Origin: Hyphomonas sp.
GTDB lineage: Bacteria; Pseudomonadota; Alphaproteobacteria; Caulobacterales; Hyphomonadaceae
Direction: 5' to 3'
Length of the DNA: 13,058 nt
Assembly (NCBI GenBank): GCA_003486945.1
Contig: DNFL01000298.1
Coordinates: 1-13,058 of the forward strand
The notes under the pieces are model-generated. The model did not search any database. It worked only from the letters and a program-made list of their open reading frames with translations, and was not told the DNA's origin. The stretch's first letter is position 1. The number at the start of each line of letters is the position of its first letter. Positions 7,202 through 12,982 of this stretch are shown here, piece after piece. The position numbers were made by a program, and so were the translations under genes.

Positions 7202-8629
7202 ATGGGAGAAACACCGGCGTTTTTTAACGAGATGGATGGGGGCGGCGACAAGCCGCGCGCGCCTTATTCCAAGTATGGCGACTGGTTTGCAGCCGAGCCG
7301 CCCGAACGGCTGCGCCGCAAGGCGCGCGAGGCGGAGACCTTTTTCCGGCGCACCGGCATCACCTTCAACGTCTATGGCGCGGCGGATGCGGATGAGCGGC
7401 TGATCCCGTTCGACATCGTGCCGCGCATCATCTCGGCGCGCGAGTGGACGAAGCTGACGCGGGGCATCGAGCAGCGGGTGCGGGCGATCAACGCCTTCCT
7501 GCATGATATCTACCACCGCCAGGAAATCCTGCGGGCGGGGCGCATCCCGGTCGAGCTGATCGAGAACAATGACGCCTTCCTGCCGAAGATGATCGGCGTC
7601 GCGCCGCCCGGCGGGATCTATACGCATATCATCGGTGTCGATCTGGTGCGCACCAGCGAGAACGAGTTCTTCGTGCTGGAGGACAATGCGCGCACGCCGT
7701 CCGGTGTCTCCTACATGCTGGAGAACCGGGAGACGATGCTGCAGATGTTCCCGGAACTGTTCACGAAAATACGTGTGCGGCCGGTGAGCGATTACCCGAA
7801 GATGCTGCGCCGGTCGTTGTCGGCCTGTGCGCCGAATGTCAGCAAGGGCAGGCCGGTGGTGGCCGTGCTGACGCCGGGCATCCACAACTCGGCCTATTAC
7901 GAGCACGCCTTCCTCGCCGACCAGATGGGCGCCGAACTGGTGGAGGGTCATGACTTGCGCGTGGTAGATGGCCGTATCGCGATGCGCACGACGCTCGGCT
8001 ATACGCCGATTGATGTGCTCTACCGCCGCGTCGATGACGACTATCTCGATCCGCTGAATTTCCGCCCCGATTCTTATCTGGGCGTGCCGGGCATCCTGGA
8101 TGTCTACCGCTCAGGCGGCATCACCATCGCCAATGCGCCAGGCACCGGGATTGCGGATGACAAGGCGATCTATTCATACATGCCGGACATCGTGCAGTTC
8201 TATACAGGCGAAAAGCCGATCCTGAAGAATGTGCCGACATGGCGCTGCTCTGAGCCCTCCTCGCTCGCCTACGTGCTGGACCATCTTTGCGAGTTGGTGG
8301 TGAAGGAAGTGCACGGCTCCGGCGGCTATGGCATGCTGGTCGGCCCGGCGGCGTCGAAGAAGGAAATCGAGGCGTTCCGCGCGAAGCTGACGGCGAAGCC
8401 CGGCAATTACATCGCGCAGCCGACGCTGGCGCTTTCGACGGTGCCGATCCTTACGCGCGCCGGTCTCGCGCCGCGGCATGTGGACCTGCGCCCGTTTGTG
8501 CTGATGTCGCCGGAAGGGATCGAGATCACGCCCGGCGGCCTGACGCGCGTGGCGCTGAAGAAGGGCTCGCTGGTCGTCAATTCGAGCCAGGGCGGCGGCA
8601 CCAAAGATACCTGGGTTCTGGAGGACTAG
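7202..8629 (+). CDS. circularly permuted ATP-grasp type 2 family protein
   Basis: A 475-residue cytoplasmic protein of the circularly permuted ATP-grasp family (DUF404/DUF407 group). Family members are predicted carboxylate-amine ligases that use ATP to form an amide or peptide bond; the substrate is not known. It matches the family along its whole length: FFNEM near the N-terminus (7-11), IPFDIVPRII (68-77), QRVRAINAFLHDIYHRQEIL (91-110), VLEDNARTPSGVSYMLENR (158-176), LTPGIHNSAYYEHAFLA (223-239), GTGIADDKAIY (314-324), VVKEVHGSGGYGML (366-379), PRHVDLRPFV (424-433) and NSSQGGGTKDTWVL (460-473). No key motif is missing. The Shine-Dalgarno is weak (AGG 3 bases before ATG), but an in-frame TGA at 7178-7180 and conserved residues before Met11 fix the start. 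It is the first gene of a four-gene operon; the alpha-E gene begins 5 bases after its stop. Confidence 0.93.
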   Translation: MGETPAFFNEMDGGGDKPRAPYSKYGDWFAAEPPERLRRKAREAETFFRRTGITFNVYGAADADERLIPFDIVPRIISAREWTKLTRGIEQRVRAINAFLHDIYHRQEILRAGRIPVELIENNDAFLPKMIGVAPPGGIYTHIIGVDLVRTSENEFFVLEDNARTPSGVSYMLENRETMLQMFPELFTKIRVRPVSDYPKMLRRSLSACAPNVSKGRPVVAVLTPGIHNSAYYEHAFLADQMGAELVEGHDLRVVDGRIAMRTTLGYTPIDVLYRRVDDDYLDPLNFRPDSYLGVPGILDVYRSGGITIANAPGTGIADDKAIYSYMPDIVQFYTGEKPILKNVPTWRCSEPSSLAYVLDHLCELVVKEVHGSGGYGMLVGPAASKKEIEAFRAKLTAKPGNYIAQPTLALSTVPILTRAGLAPRHVDLRPFVLMSPEGIEITPGGLTRVALKKGSLVVNSSQGGGTKDTWVLED

Positions 8630-8634
8630 GCGGC

Positions 8635-9576
8635 ATGCTGGGCAAGACCGCAGGGGGCCTCTTCTGGATGTTTCGCTATCTCGAGCGGGCGGAGAATACC
8701 GCGCGCCTCGCGGATGCGGGATTCCGCATTGCGCTGACACGCTCCGACCATGCCGAGGATGAGTGGGCCTCGATCATCGACACAGCGTCGGCGCGGCAGG
8801 CCTTTCTTGAATCCGGAGGCAAGTTTGACGGGCCGAGTGTCATCAATTTCCTGCTGCGCGACAGTGCGAACCCGTCGAGCGTGCTATCCGTGACCGAAGC
8901 GGCGCGCAACAATGCCCGCCTCGTGCGCACGGCGCTGACACGCGAAGTGTGGGAAGCGGTGAACGAGACATGGATCAAGCAGAAGGCCGCGCTTGCCCGC
9001 CCGGTGCGCGAGACGGACCTGCCGGATGTGCTCGGCCTGATCCGCAACCAGAGCGCCCTCGTGCGCGGCGCAACCGTCGGCACGATGTTGCGCAACGACA
9101 TCTACAATTTTGCCCGCATCGGCACCTTCGTGGAGCGGGCCGACAATATCGCGCGCATTCTGGACGTGAAGTATTATGTGCTGCTGCCTTCGGTGCAGCT
9201 GGTTGGTTCGACGCTGGACAATGTGCAATGGGAAACGATCCTGCGCGCGGCCTCGGCGGAGCGCTCGTTCCGCTGGTTGCATGGCGGCGAGACGCGGCCG
9301 CTGACGATTGCGGACTTTCTGATCCTCGACCGGCGGATGCCGCGCTCTCTGCTCTACTGCCTGCGCAAGATTGCCGGGAATCTGGGTCATTTGTGTGCGG
9401 ATTATGGTGTGCGCCGCCCGAGCCTTGAGGCGGCAATCGACCTGCGCGACCAGCTGGAAGAACTGTCCATTGACCAGGTGATGGAGCGCGGCCTGCACGA
9501 ATTCCTGACCAGCTTCATCCAGTCCAACAACGCCCTCGCCCGACAGGTCGAGGAAGACTTCCGTTTCAACAGTTGA
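8635..9576 (+). CDS. alpha-E domain-containing protein
   Basis: A 313-residue, largely alpha-helical cytoplasmic protein of the alpha-E family (named for its helical fold and conserved Glu/Arg pattern). It has no known enzymatic activity and is found almost always next to circularly permuted ATP-grasp genes, so it is probably a partner or substrate-binding subunit. The conserved signature occurs twice: FRYLERAENTARLAD (13-27) near the N-terminus and GTFVERADNIARILD (163-177), which suggests an internal duplication. RRMPRSLLYCL (233-243) is another typical segment. The start ATG at 8635 lies 5 bases after the ATP-grasp stop, with GAGGA inside the end of that gene as ribosome site. The open frame extends further 5' into the ATP-grasp gene but that part has no homology-like content and is excluded. 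Translation is probably coupled to the upstream gene. Confidence 0.92.
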   Translation: MLGKTAGGLFWMFRYLERAENTARLADAGFRIALTRSDHAEDEWASIIDTASARQAFLESGGKFDGPSVINFLLRDSANPSSVLSVTEAARNNARLVRTALTREVWEAVNETWIKQKAALARPVRETDLPDVLGLIRNQSALVRGATVGTMLRNDIYNFARIGTFVERADNIARILDVKYYVLLPSVQLVGSTLDNVQWETILRAASAERSFRWLHGGETRPLTIADFLILDRRMPRSLLYCLRKIAGNLGHLCADYGVRRPSLEAAIDLRDQLEELSIDQVMERGLHEFLTSFIQSNNALARQVEEDFRFNS

Positions 9577-9586
9577 GGGAAGATCG

Positions 9587-10390
9587 ATGCGTCTGAGAAT
9601 CCACCACACATCGCACTACACCTACACCGCGCCGGTTTCCTACGGCCTGCTGCAGCTGCGCCAGACGCCGAAATCGCGCGCCGGCCAGCAGGTGCTCGGC
9701 TGGGAGCTGAAGATCGAGGGCGGGCGGGTCGAGGCGGAGTATGAGGACCAGAACGCCAACTGGGTGCAGCTGGTCAGCGTGACGCCCGGTGCTTCGGAAC
9801 TGGTGATCACCAGCGACGGAGAGGTGGAAGTGGAAGACAAGGCCGGCGTGGTCGGCACCCATCGCGGCTTCGCGCCGCTCTGGCTGTTTCGCCGCTCCAC
9901 GCCGCTGACGCGCGCCGGGGCGCATGTGCGAAAGATTGCCCGCGCCGCGCCGGACAATACGGACGGCGACATCGCCCGCCTGCACGTCCTGGCCGGACTG
10001 GTGCGTGATGCCATCCGCTATGAACCCGGCTGGACGGACGTGGACACGAAGGCCGAGGACGCGCTGGAGGCGGGCCACGGCGTCTGCCAGGATCATGCGC
10101 ATGTGTTCATCTCGGCGGCACGCCTTCTTGGCTACCCGGCACGTTACGCGGGCGGCTACCTGATGATGAATGACCGGGTGCATCAGGATGCCGGCCATGC
10201 TTGGGCCGAGGTGCATGTCGACCGGCTCGGGTGGGTGGGTTTCGACATTTCCAACGCGATTTCCCCCGACAGCCGCTACGTTCGCGTGGCGACGGGTCTT
10301 GACTACCGCGAGGCAGCGCCTGTTTCTGGCATGCGGTTCGGCGCGGCAAGCGAATCGCTCGATGTTTCGATCCAGGTGCAGCAACAATAA
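9587..10390 (+). CDS. transglutaminase-like cysteine protease family protein
   Basis: A 267-residue protein with an N-terminal transglutaminase-associated beta domain (RIHHTSHYTYTAPV, 4-17, about 1-90) followed by the transglutaminase core (about 125-225). The papain-like triad is intact: Cys167 in GHGVCQDHAH, His204 in AGHAWAEVH and Asp220 in WVGFDISN. Bacterial members of this group usually act as peptidases or amidases rather than cross-linking enzymes. No signal peptide is visible, so a cytoplasmic location is likely. The ATG at 9587 is preceded by GAGGGAAG (9575-9582) overlapping the alpha-E stop codon, a clear sign of coupled translation; the gap is 10 bases. In this operon context it may trim, transfer or hydrolyse the amide bonds made by the ATP-grasp enzyme; that is inference. 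Confidence 0.92.
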   Translation: MRLRIHHTSHYTYTAPVSYGLLQLRQTPKSRAGQQVLGWELKIEGGRVEAEYEDQNANWVQLVSVTPGASELVITSDGEVEVEDKAGVVGTHRGFAPLWLFRRSTPLTRAGAHVRKIARAAPDNTDGDIARLHVLAGLVRDAIRYEPGWTDVDTKAEDALEAGHGVCQDHAHVFISAARLLGYPARYAGGYLMMNDRVHQDAGHAWAEVHVDRLGWVGFDISNAISPDSRYVRVATGLDYREAAPVSGMRFGAASESLDVSIQVQQQ

Positions 10391-10415
10391 GAAAGCCGAA
10401 TAACGGTTCCCTCCC

Positions 10416-11147
10416 ATGACCTATTGCGTCGGAATGAAGCTCAACGAAAGCCTGGTGTTCATGTCCGACACGCGGACGAACGCCGGTGTCGACAACATCT
10501 CCCGGTTCCGGAAGCTGTTCACTTGGCAAGTGCCGGGCGAGCGGGTGATCGTGCTGATGACGGCGGGCAACCTGGCCACAACGCAAGCAGTTGTCAGCTT
10601 GCTGGAGGAGCGCACGAAGGCGCCTTCCGAACGCCGGCCGTCGATCCTCGAAATGCCGACCATGTTCCAGATCGCGCGCCATGTCGGCGACACGCTGAAG
10701 GATGTGATCCAGTCCAACGCGCCGACCGGGCAGAAGGCGGACTCGACGTTCAACTCCACCATCATCCTCGGCGGACAGGTGAAGGACATGCCGCCCCGCA
10801 TGTTCATGATTTATCCGGAAGGCAATTTCATCGAGGCGAGCGATGACACGCCCTTCTTCCAGATCGGCGAGACGAAATATGGCCGGCCGATCCTGGTGCG
10901 CGCCTACGATCCGGCCATGAGCACGGAAGAGGCGGTGAAACTGCTGATGGTGTCGTTCGACTCCACCATCAAGGCGAACCTTTCCGTCGGCTTGCCGCTG
11001 GACCTGCAGGTGGTCGAAACCAATGCCCTGCGGTTGGGCAAATCGAAACGGATCGAAGCAGAAGACCCCTATTACCGCCAGATTTCCAGTGGATGGGGCG
11101 AAGCACTGAAGAAAGCATTCGACTCGCTGCCTCCCTTCAGGTTTTGA
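10416..11147 (+). CDS. Anbu, proteasome-type NTN-hydrolase peptidase
   Basis: A 243-residue proteasome-type peptidase of the Anbu family (ancestral beta subunit), related to HslV and 20S beta subunits. Removal of Met1 would expose Thr2 as the N-terminal nucleophile, and this requirement fixes the start at 10416 rather than at Met7. The proteasome-like catalytic partners are visible: Asp18 in MSDTRTNAG and Lys33 in FRKLF, with IGETKYGRPIL (150-160) and FDSTIKANLSVGLPLDL (181-197) supplying the remaining conserved active-site positions. Published structures of homologues show open spiral or lock-washer assemblies rather than closed rings; peptidase activity has been hard to demonstrate and no natural substrate is established. 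It is the last gene of the operon. The 25-base gap before it ends in a pyrimidine-rich TTCCCTCCC with no clear Shine-Dalgarno, so translation may depend on the upstream gene. Confidence 0.93.
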   Translation: MTYCVGMKLNESLVFMSDTRTNAGVDNISRFRKLFTWQVPGERVIVLMTAGNLATTQAVVSLLEERTKAPSERRPSILEMPTMFQIARHVGDTLKDVIQSNAPTGQKADSTFNSTIILGGQVKDMPPRMFMIYPEGNFIEASDDTPFFQIGETKYGRPILVRAYDPAMSTEEAVKLLMVSFDSTIKANLSVGLPLDLQVVETNALRLGKSKRIEAEDPYYRQISSGWGEALKKAFDSLPPFRF

Positions 11148-11153
11148 CAAGGT

Positions 11154-11198
11154 GCCGGTGCAAGTGTGCCGGCTGATTTGACGCCGCTTTGTGCGGCG
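11154..11198 (+). other. tandem small inverted repeats between Anbu and DUF481 genes
   Basis: Two stem-loops are possible: GCCGG (11154-11158) with CCGGC (11169-11173) and the perfect CGCCGC-TTTGT-GCGGCG (11182-11198). Neither is followed by a T-run. The second ends 6 bases before the Shine-Dalgarno of the DUF481 gene. They may act as a weak or Rho-assisted terminator for the operon, an mRNA 3' end protector, or a leader structure for the next gene. Confidence 0.35.
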
Positions 11199-11204
11199 CA
11201 GAAC

Positions 11205-11210
11205 AGGAGA
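11205..11210 (+). promoter_or_regulatory. ribosome binding site deciding the DUF481 start
   Basis: AGGAGA, 5 bases before the ATG at 11216. It selects this start, which also begins a proper signal peptide, over the upstream in-frame ATG at 11189. Confidence 0.7.
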
Positions 11211-11215
11211 CACGC

Positions 11216-11959
11216 ATGAAACTGTTTTTCGCCGCCATGGCATCCGGATTCTGTATCGCAATGCCTGCGTTTGCAGATGACGCGAAATGGAAGGGCGAAG
11301 GATCGTTCAGTGCGGGCCTCAACACAGGCAATACAGAGACCAGCGATCTCGGCATTGGCCTGAAGATGGCGCGCGAAACGCAGGTCTGGAAGAACAGCGT
11401 CGAGTTTGTTGCAGACTATGGCACCAAGAATGGCAGCGAGACCAAGAACCGTATGTTCTTCGCCGGCCAGACCAACCGTACACTGAATGATGACGCGTTT
11501 GTCTTTGCCCGCGTGTCGCATGAGGTGGACGAGTTCTCGGCGTTTGACAGCCGCTCCTTCATCGGCGGCGGTTTCGGCTGGCAGGTGTTTGAAGGCCCGC
11601 CGGCGCGGTGGTCGCTTGAAGGCGGTCCGGGCCTGAAATTTGACGAAGTGAAGGAAATCACAAGCGGGGATCCGCCCGTCACCGTTCCGGGGCGTACGGA
11701 CGAATCTTTCTCGTTCATTGCGGCCTCGAAGTTCGGCTATGTGTTCAATGATGCCGTGAAGCTCAGCAACGACACGAGCCTGCTCTATGCTGACACATCA
11801 ACCCAGATTGGCAACAAGGCGAGCCTGACGGCACTGCTGACCAAAAGCCTGTCGGCCCGCTTCTCCGTCGAAGTGCGCCACGATACCGATCCGAAGCCGG
11901 GATTCGAAGAAACCGACACTGCAACTCGCATGTCGATTGTCTATGCCTTCGGCGGCTGA
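11216..11959 (+). CDS. DUF481 (YdiY-like) outer-membrane beta-barrel protein
   Basis: A 247-residue exported protein of the DUF481 family (YdiY, called salt-induced outer-membrane protein). Residues 1-20 form a signal peptide with probable cleavage after AMPAFA. The mature part starts with WKGEGSFSAGLNTGNTETSD, typical of the family, and continues as alternating amphipathic strands with Gly/aromatic turns (SFIGGGFGWQVF, WSLEGGPGLKF, FGYVFNDAVKLSNDTSLLYA), consistent with a beta barrel. The C-terminus is VYAFGG, with the aromatic residue a few positions from the end instead of last. The family's function is unknown; pore or osmotic-stress roles have been suggested. It lies 68 bases after Anbu on the same strand and could be read through or have its own promoter. 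It converges with the C39-like gene at a 7-base gap. Confidence 0.88.
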   Translation: MKLFFAAMASGFCIAMPAFADDAKWKGEGSFSAGLNTGNTETSDLGIGLKMARETQVWKNSVEFVADYGTKNGSETKNRMFFAGQTNRTLNDDAFVFARVSHEVDEFSAFDSRSFIGGGFGWQVFEGPPARWSLEGGPGLKFDEVKEITSGDPPVTVPGRTDESFSFIAASKFGYVFNDAVKLSNDTSLLYADTSTQIGNKASLTALLTKSLSARFSVEVRHDTDPKPGFEETDTATRMSIVYAFGG

Positions 11960-11966
11960 CAAGCTT

Positions 11967-12662
11967 TTATTTCCGGCTGAACACAATGGCGGCGTCGCCG
12001 AAGGGTGCGCGGTAGCGTTCGAAGCGCTGGGCGGAGATGGTGCGAAATCCGGCAACGGGTTCCAGCACGACAAACTTGTCGCCTTCGTATCCTGCAACGA
12101 GAACAAAGTGGTTCAGCATCGACCAGTTGGTTTTTTCTGACAGCCAGGCGGTGCGGGACGTAACGATTTCTGCGGGCAAGCCCAGTACGGGCACATTCAT
12201 TCCCGGCAGCTGGCGGGATTGTACGTAGACGGAGGGAACCTTGACGGGCACCAGTACGGGTCGCCCGGCTTCCAGTTCGCCGATCACGCCTGCTGCGGGA
12301 ATGCGCACAGCGCTTGCCAGCAGGCCGCTGGCATCGGCGAGCGCCAGCAGTTCGGCCATCGAATAGCCGATTACGGTATCGGCAGGTGGGGACGCAGCGA
12401 AGATGTCAGCGCCGCGAACTGTTCCAGCGCCGTGCCAGTAGTTGATCAGGCTTGCGAGCGCATGCGCGCCGCACGCTGCGCCGTCTTCCTGCGGATCATG
12501 CACGAGCGGCAGGAGAAGGGTTTCTGGTGGGTCAACCGCCGCGCCAAACAATTCGAAACTGTTCTGGCTGGTGCGCGCCGCAAACGCAGACGGATCTGAG
12601 GCGGGGTGTATGGCGCAGGCGCTCAAACCGAACGCCAGCGCCATACTGAAGACAGGCCGCAT
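11967..12662 (-). CDS. C39-like cysteine peptidase, putative lipoprotein
   Basis: A 231-residue protein with a lipoprotein signal: hydrophobic 4-15 and lipobox LSAC with Cys16, so it is probably anchored in the envelope facing the periplasm. The rest resembles the papain-fold C39 peptidase-like family. Gln58 in DPQEDGAACGAHAL is placed as the oxyanion residue, Cys64 as nucleophile, and His185 in NHFVLVAGY as general base. The third residue, usually Asp or Asn in a DP motif, is Glu201 in VVLEPVAG. The remaining domain (about 80-150) has the helix-strand pattern of the family including LEAGRPVLVPV. The ATG lies 2 bases after the stop of the small upstream gene and has no purine-rich ribosome site, so its translation is probably coupled. 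C39-like lipoproteins paired with a short membrane protein occur elsewhere (PA2778/PA2779-type pairs); whether this is the same family is uncertain. Confidence 0.7.
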   Translation of the reverse strand: MRPVFSMALAFGLSACAIHPASDPSAFAARTSQNSFELFGAAVDPPETLLLPLVHDPQEDGAACGAHALASLINYWHGAGTVRGADIFAASPPADTVIGYSMAELLALADASGLLASAVRIPAAGVIGELEAGRPVLVPVKVPSVYVQSRQLPGMNVPVLGLPAEIVTSRTAWLSEKTNWSMLNHFVLVAGYEGDKFVVLEPVAGFRTISAQRFERYRAPFGDAAIVFSRK

Positions 12663-12664
12663 CG

Positions 12665-12982
12665 TCAGACGACGGAGGCAATCACCACGACAATGGCGAC
12701 CAGGCCAATAAGTGCGAGAATGTTGTTGTTGGAAAGGCCGGCATTGTAGGCTTCGGCCTCTTCCGGGGTCAGCACCTGCACGTGATAGCCTTGCTCTTCA
12801 TACGCGCGCACCTCTGCGGTTTCCGCTTCGGTGAGGCCGTAGCGCGCGAGTTCACTGTCGGAGAATGTCTGCGCAGGCACGCTGCGGAACTGCGATGCCG
12901 GGGCCTGTGCCATGGCAAGCGGCGCGGCGATCTGGGACAGCGCGAAGCCGAGCGCGATGGCGGCGGGAAGACGGTTTTTCAT
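12665..12982 (-). CDS. small exported protein with C-terminal membrane anchor
   Basis: A 105-residue protein. It has a signal peptide (1-25, cleavage probably after PLAMA), a short acidic, helix-forming periplasmic segment with ARYGLTEAETAEVRAYEEQGYHVQVLTPEEAEAYNAGLSN split across 46-85, and a C-terminal hydrophobic helix (about 87-105, ending IVVVIASVV) with no residues after it. The product would be a small membrane protein with its body outside the cytoplasm. GAGGAG (12988-12993) lies 5 bases before the ATG. Its stop is 2 bases before the start of the C39-like lipoprotein gene, so the two form an operon and probably work together. The layout is reminiscent of PA2779-type partners of PA2778-type cysteine peptidases, but I cannot confirm homology. 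A chaperone, inhibitor or anchor for the protease are all possible. Confidence 0.72.
   Translation of the reverse strand: MKNRLPAAIALGFALSQIAAPLAMAQAPASQFRSVPAQTFSDSELARYGLTEAETAEVRAYEEQGYHVQVLTPEEAEAYNAGLSNNNILALIGLVAIVVVIASVV

Follow-up and report, generated by a model that had tools for sequence, protein, structure and literature searches.

The window analyzed in this study is the whole 13,058-nucleotide stretch of Hyphomonas sp. DNA at positions 1 to 13,058 of contig DNFL01000298.1 (assembly GCA_003486945.1), and its plus strand carries four intact, adjoining genes of the ATP-grasp, alpha-E, transglutaminase-fold and Anbu families, in the canonical order of the Anbu operon. Judged from its sequence, the locus is a canonical Anbu operon, an ordinary intact member of an already known kind, and the family identities of the four proteins are near certain. 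We tentatively favor a function as a cytoplasmic nitrogen-stress module, in which a ligase pair makes an amide, its transfer or cleavage being the task of Anbu and the transglutaminase-fold enzyme. The four-gene set would be produced when nitrogen is scarce; the ATP-grasp and alpha-E proteins would activate a carboxylate as an acyl phosphate in the cytoplasm and couple it to an amine, using ATP; the transglutaminase-fold protein, through its Cys, and the Anbu ring, through its N-terminal Thr, would transfer or cut the same kind of amide or isopeptide bond; and nitrogen or amino acids would be shuttled or recovered by this transfer or cleavage. That the four proteins share a single pathway, which way its reactions run, and that nitrogen recovery is its purpose are what we infer.

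Organization and integrity of the operon

The four genes of the operon are as follows (aa, amino acids).

7202..8629, plus strand: circularly permuted (CP) ATP-grasp protein, 475 aa, predicted amide ligase (PF14403, PF04174; PDB 3n6x)
8635..9576, plus strand: alpha-E protein, 313 aa, helical, apparently built of two halves in tandem (PF04168)
9587..10390, plus strand: transglutaminase-fold protein, 267 aa, with Cys167, His204 and Asp220 (PF08379, PF01841; PDB 3isr)
10416..11147, plus strand: Anbu, 243 aa, proteasome-type Ntn protein; Thr2 (behind the initiator Met), Asp18 and Lys33 (PF00227; PDB Anbu chains)

The genes are separated by 5 (8630-8634), 10 and 25 bases, which bears out the original prediction of four full-length, closely spaced genes at these positions. 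The start of alpha-E was taken from the sequence as the ATG at 8635; the mechanical list of open reading frames (ORFs) holds a longer frame. The ratio of nonsynonymous to synonymous change (dN/dS) of the four genes was 0.056-0.139 against the close relatives L001 and L002 (ATP-grasp gene, 0.066 and 0.056, respectively) and 0.18-0.31 against L015 and L003, where synonymous change is near saturation. Because of the low values against L001 and L002, none of the four genes looks decaying and the unit appears to be kept by selection. The named nearest proteins of the four products are mostly from Hyphomonas, and no N-terminus among the four reads like a signal peptide when judged by eye, as had been stated before. 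The four-gene operon has been described, with the prediction credited to Valas and Bourne 2008 and Iyer et al. 2009, and the Anbu operon of Yersinia bercovieri and Pseudomonas has these four families in identical order (PMC6376114, PMC5666114). Like that operon, the window combines an Anbu bearing the N-terminal Thr, Asp and Lys with ATP-grasp, alpha-E and transglutaminase-like partners, and nothing was found that sets the window copy apart; with the operon described and Anbu structures solved, the neighborhood was indeed already known, as the original prediction held.

Proteins of the operon

The ATP-grasp protein matches PF14403 over positions 1-374 of 374 (E 3.5e-164) and also PF04174 in Pfam, i.e., it is a full-length protein of the circularly permuted type 2 family, and its residues 8-475 match PDB 3n6x, a 'putative glutathionylspermidine synthase' (E 3.8e-191). 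The predicted amide-bond-forming activity is likely, and the Yersinia ATP-grasp protein frees phosphate from ATP (PMC6376114). The alpha-E protein matches PF04168 (Pfam, E 2e-86); a PDB search up to E 1 found no sequence relative, and the AlphaFold2 model is all-helical (pLDDT 86.6, pTM 0.85), with no PDB relative established for it. Its two halves (residues 1-150 and 151-313) align with an hhalign probability of 96.3 and E 2e-9 over 83 columns, from profiles low in diversity (1.8 and 2.8 effective sequences), and each half contains an ER motif (at about residues 14-24 in the first and 165-174 in the second), so the protein looks like a tandem duplication. In a sample of 348 Pseudomonadota genomes, evenly drawn, alpha-E and CP-ATP-grasp co-occurred exactly, in the identical 201 genomes, and in a second cluster type at L041 and L079 the two are naturally fused in chains of 806 and 818 aa. 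Because of this perfect co-occurrence and the natural fusion, the ATP-grasp and alpha-E proteins likely make up one obligate ligase unit, which would be a physical complex.

The transglutaminase-fold protein comprises the PF01841 core and the PF08379 bacterial N-terminal region (Pfam), and its second half (residues 134-256) matches PDB 3isr (E 1.3e-10). Cys167 is kept in 104 of 106 sequences and His204 and Asp220 in all 106, a set made of the best sequence per locus that includes some from the second cluster type. Anbu matches PF00227 (Pfam, E 7.7e-9) and the solved Anbu chains 5loy, 5nyj, 5nyf, 5nyw and 5lox with E 7.2e-92 to 2.6e-62 (5loy 7.2e-92, 5nyj 1.6e-75). It begins with MTYC and has D18 and K33; among 138 sequences (from 141 places, 3 being removed by a length or retrieval filter) 137 have Thr at position 2 and one has Ser, Asp18 and Lys33 are invariant, and a Cys stands two residues beyond Thr2 in all but two. 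In Yersinia Anbu the Thr1 is exposed, Met removal having been shown, and Asp17 and Lys32 are kept (PMC6376114, PMC5666114). The intact Cys-His-Asp and N-terminal Thr that had been noted are thus present and conserved in relatives. The description of both proteins as hydrolases fared less well, since the transglutaminase-fold protein is possibly a transferase rather than a hydrolase, and none of the Anbu proteins assayed acted as an amidase on the standard proteasome substrates (PMC6376114).

A dodecameric open ring assembled via a long C-terminal helix is typical of Anbu; the window protein aligns with the solved chains over nearly its full length and may assemble likewise. An open split ring was reported in PMC8665760, which stated in 2021 that Anbu has no known function. 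Anbu shares the proteasome-type Ntn fold and the Thr nucleophile with HslVU and the 20S proteasome, and differs from them in its reported open split ring, in its inactivity on proteasome substrates and in having no AAA+ unfoldase at hand: the neighbors of the window Anbu are the transglutaminase-fold and DUF481 proteins, with no hslU-type AAA+ gene beside it, and the ten window proteins scanned gave no AAA+ match. An alternative view is that the system serves protein turnover, with Anbu as a processive self-compartmentalizing protease that would increase protein recycling under nitrogen stress and the other three proteins regulating, modifying or feeding it. Fuchs et al. favored this explanation and deemed peptide synthesis less likely (PMC5666114 section 14), and it would fit the almost invariant Thr, Asp and Lys as well as the 3 of 140 genomes in which Anbu, its triad residues kept, persists with no partner. 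However, besides the inactivity of Anbu on the substrates tried, no AAA+ partner is known for Anbu (PMC5666114), and 137 of the 140 Anbu genomes have the ligase pair, a companion for which a general protease would have no need. We consider protein turnover somewhat unlikely as the main function.

The glutathionylspermidine synthetase/amidase also combines an ATP-grasp ligase with a papain-like Cys enzyme and is similar to the window unit in principle. The E. coli protein 2IO7 presumably has an ATP-grasp half. It has been named as a CHAP protein (PMC10318531). In contrast, the window has separate genes, a transglutaminase fold instead of CHAP, and alpha-E and Anbu in addition; its proteins match PF01841 and PF08379 with no CHAP match listed and no ATP-grasp/CHAP fusion. 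The window unit is therefore outside the glutathionylspermidine synthetase/amidase family.

Conservation of the gene order and separability of Anbu

Near relatives were collected by scanning genome contigs with an alphaproteobacterial Anbu alignment, and the best 80 of at least 576 confirmed relatives were compared. All four genes were found in the same order and on the same strand at 75 of these 80 nearest loci, which supports the original view of a single conserved unit. One of the 75, L017, has alpha-E broken into two frames; L032, L037 and L048 are cut by contig ends and agree in their visible part, and L041 and L079 deviate in that the second cluster type adjoins Anbu. Gaps of at most 50 bases were found at 56 of 75, 71 of 77 and 66 of 78 of the three successive junctions, an artefact of L079 being removed from the last.

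The survey of the 348 genomes gave a more differentiated picture. Anbu was detected in 140 genomes, alpha-E in 201, CP-ATP-grasp in 201 (matches over the cut-off, three weaker ones being dropped) and the transglutaminase N-terminal region in 198, and 131 of the 140 Anbu genomes had all three partners. Independent distribution of the families, which the original prediction had named as an argument against one unit, was found for Anbu and not for the ligase pair: 64 of the 201 genomes with the pair lack Anbu, so Anbu is an optional, separable addition. Three genomes (G105, G259 and G350) have Anbu without any partner. The Anbu genes concerned (L118 in G105, L125 in G350 and L126 in G259) have intact triad residues, and their genomes gave no match to ATP-grasp, alpha-E or the transglutaminase N-terminal region. 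Among the 141 Anbu places of the 140 genomes, at least one flanking partner was found at 118 and none was detected at 23 (22 genomes), within flanks of 1.5 kb for 30 places and about 6 kb for 111 and by blastp with the window proteins and one large transglutaminase, a search that distant partners can escape. The ATP-grasp/alpha-E pair is present elsewhere in 19 of these 22 genomes, and one of the 23 places, L141 (G027), is a weak Anbu match (E 1.8e-32) which may be another proteasome homologue. The closed conjugate-and-degrade or synthesize-and-recycle cycle proposed before is not supported as worded. Such a cycle can still be fairly supposed; this distribution weakens its Anbu part and strengthens the ATP-grasp and alpha-E part.

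The separability of Anbu counts against the nitrogen-stress module. An alternative is loose co-regulation, in which ATP-grasp and alpha-E would be the core and Anbu and the transglutaminase-fold protein separable accessories that share only the timing of expression. This would agree with the pair occurring without Anbu, with the partnerless Anbu places, with the second cluster type having its own transglutaminases and with wild-type Pseudomonas putida, in which the partners rose and Anbu did not (PMC7801951). Yet the four-gene order and the short junctions of the nearest loci speak against loose co-regulation, which we regard as quite unlikely. Protein tagging, proposed by Iyer et al. 2009 as quoted in PMC6376114 and PMC5666114, supposes that the ligase adds a peptide or amino acid to proteins and that Anbu removes the tag or degrades the tagged proteins. 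The combination of a ligase with two amide-acting enzymes in one conserved unit would suit it. However, no encoded tag was found beside the operon across lineages among the neighbor clusters present in at least 6 of 191 loci, in a scan of ORFs of at least 70 aa in flanks of up to 10 kb that leaves smaller ORFs, rarer neighbors and tags encoded elsewhere outside its scope. Protein tagging appears to us a doubtful explanation, of low probability.

Nitrogen limitation and urea genes

The link to nitrogen limitation, which goes beyond the original prediction, comes mainly from published expression studies. In P. putida, PP_2685 (Anbu) and PP_2688 (ATP-grasp) were higher on nitrate than on ammonium, with log2 values of 4.44 and 3.99 (PMC8050072), PP2685-2687 were raised under nitrogen limitation (PMC3325844), and in the wild type PP_2686-2688 increased 11-15 fold under nitrogen limitation together with urtABCD, both being assigned by the authors to ntrB/ntrC (PMC7801951). 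Burkholderia genes of the ATP-grasp, alpha-E and transglutaminase families, annotated as DUF404/407, DUF403 and two transglutaminase-like, were NtrC/sigma-54 dependent (PMC5491218), and the three partner domains were associated with urea metabolism by their abundance in marine metagenomes (PMC3597751).

Sigma-54-like sites were sought in a region of about 400 bases that spans the start and the sequence upstream of it, allowing up to 2 mismatches, with other large ORFs of the same loci as controls. The consensus was assumed to be TGGCACG-N4-TTGCW, with GG and GC required. In distant relatives, whose Anbu is less than 60% identical to that of the window, a site was found at the ATP-grasp gene of the Anbu locus in 26 of 76 cases, versus 8 of 444 control regions. 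The sigma-54 motif link holds among these distant relatives and finds no support in the lineage of the window, where nitrogen control would be hypothetical.

Urea transporter (urt) or urease genes were found near the operon at 7 of 241 loci by a search with the urt/urease proteins of L223, whose UrtA-E and urease gamma and alpha were identified by NCBIfam:

L035, L039, L066: urtABCDE on the Anbu strand, 0.5-0.6 kb downstream; L039 also has urease farther along
L041: urtD/urtE, upstream
L086: urease gamma, downstream
L222: urtA, urtD and urtE, on the downstream side of alpha-E
L223: urtABCDE immediately upstream of the four-gene set; divergent urease genes follow farther out

Among L001-L080 the count was 4 of 80, where roughly 0.15 would be expected, and among L081-L110 it was 1 of 30. 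Our literature searches did not find this adjacency in print; it and the sigma-54-like sites in distant relatives are additions of the present analysis. One could go further and suppose that Anbu is the hydrolase of a urea-linked nitrogen-salvage pathway and not a protein-degrading protease. In this reading, an amino-acid carrier would receive amines or ureides that are scarce or toxic through conjugation by ATP-grasp/alpha-E, and the nitrogen would be freed later by Anbu together with the transglutaminase-fold enzyme. If true, this would explain the joint induction with urtABCD under nitrogen limitation, the adjoining urt or urease genes of some relatives and why Anbu fails on peptide substrates; we consider it unlikely.

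Several further observations weigh against the nitrogen-stress module. As to expression, Anbu PP_2685 was nearly flat (1.12) in the P. putida wild type while its partners rose (PMC7801951 Table 2), and in the rpoN (sigma-54) mutant the partners still increased 14-20 fold and urtABCD 7-17 fold (PMC7801951), which speaks against a strict need for sigma-54 in P. putida and leaves the induction by nitrogen limitation in place. The Anbu operon genes have been cited as non-essential, and as unchanged in several conditions, nitrogen limitation not being among them (PMC5666114 section 14). As to the motif, close relatives showed no enrichment (3 of 85 versus 27 of 821 controls), the window has no -24/-12 candidate within 400 bases upstream of 7202, in which it differs from the part of the distant relatives that carry a site, and the 26 distant sites are not independent because related species share sites. 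As to the urea genes, L035 and L066 belong to the same genus and the four loci of L001-L080 look like a single family, none of L111-L221 (0 of 111) has such neighbors, and L222 and L223 are not unbiased because they were fetched partly for a nearby urtA. The lack of amidase activity and the opinion of Fuchs et al. point the same way, as does PMC6376114, which found the proteins of the operon not to interact specifically in its assays.

Variant loci and neighboring genes

The second cluster type lies beside Anbu at L041:8872-14670 and L079:10757-17534 and encodes a large transglutaminase of 1124-1156 aa, the fused ATP-grasp/alpha-E protein of 806-818 aa and a small transglutaminase. It has the three partner families in common with the window and differs from it by having ATP-grasp and alpha-E in one chain and an extra large transglutaminase of about 1100 aa. 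In L079 it lies between Anbu and an additional ATP-grasp/alpha-E/transglutaminase set. At the distant loci L112, L113, L117, L133, L138 and L218 (variants L136 and L221), Anbu stands directly before a large transglutaminase gene, with a divergent long ATP-grasp chain (847-865 aa where given) that resembles the fusion in length; this is a different arrangement of Anbu. An ORF of about 130 aa is found between the ATP-grasp and alpha-E genes in L053 and L057, with fragments in L051 and L055, in some Rhizobiales; it presumably resembles the S23 four-helix-bundle family. A mutS gene, labeled by eye, is often near partnerless Anbu (9 of the 23 loci: L173, L179, L182, L184, L188, L189, L190, L194 and L196) and marks a separate conserved neighborhood. 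Anbu of 47% identity also occurs in two phage-collection records of 232-306 kb, CAKLQH020000004.1 and CAKLQF020000002.1 (Acinetobacter phage MD-2021a), where it may be host DNA. Downstream of Anbu in the window, positions 11189-12982 hold a DUF481 protein on the plus strand and then two opposite-strand genes, one with a weak C39-peptidase match and one for a 105-aa protein whose start looks by eye like a signal peptide, possibly a secreted-peptide set.

Anbu stands near the root of the proteasome family and was named in 2008. The window copy adds one ordinary intact member to the known kind of operon. Taken together, a separable Anbu, an inseparable ligase pair and the ties to nitrogen starvation and, in some relatives, to urea genes indicate which condition and which class of molecules should be tested first.

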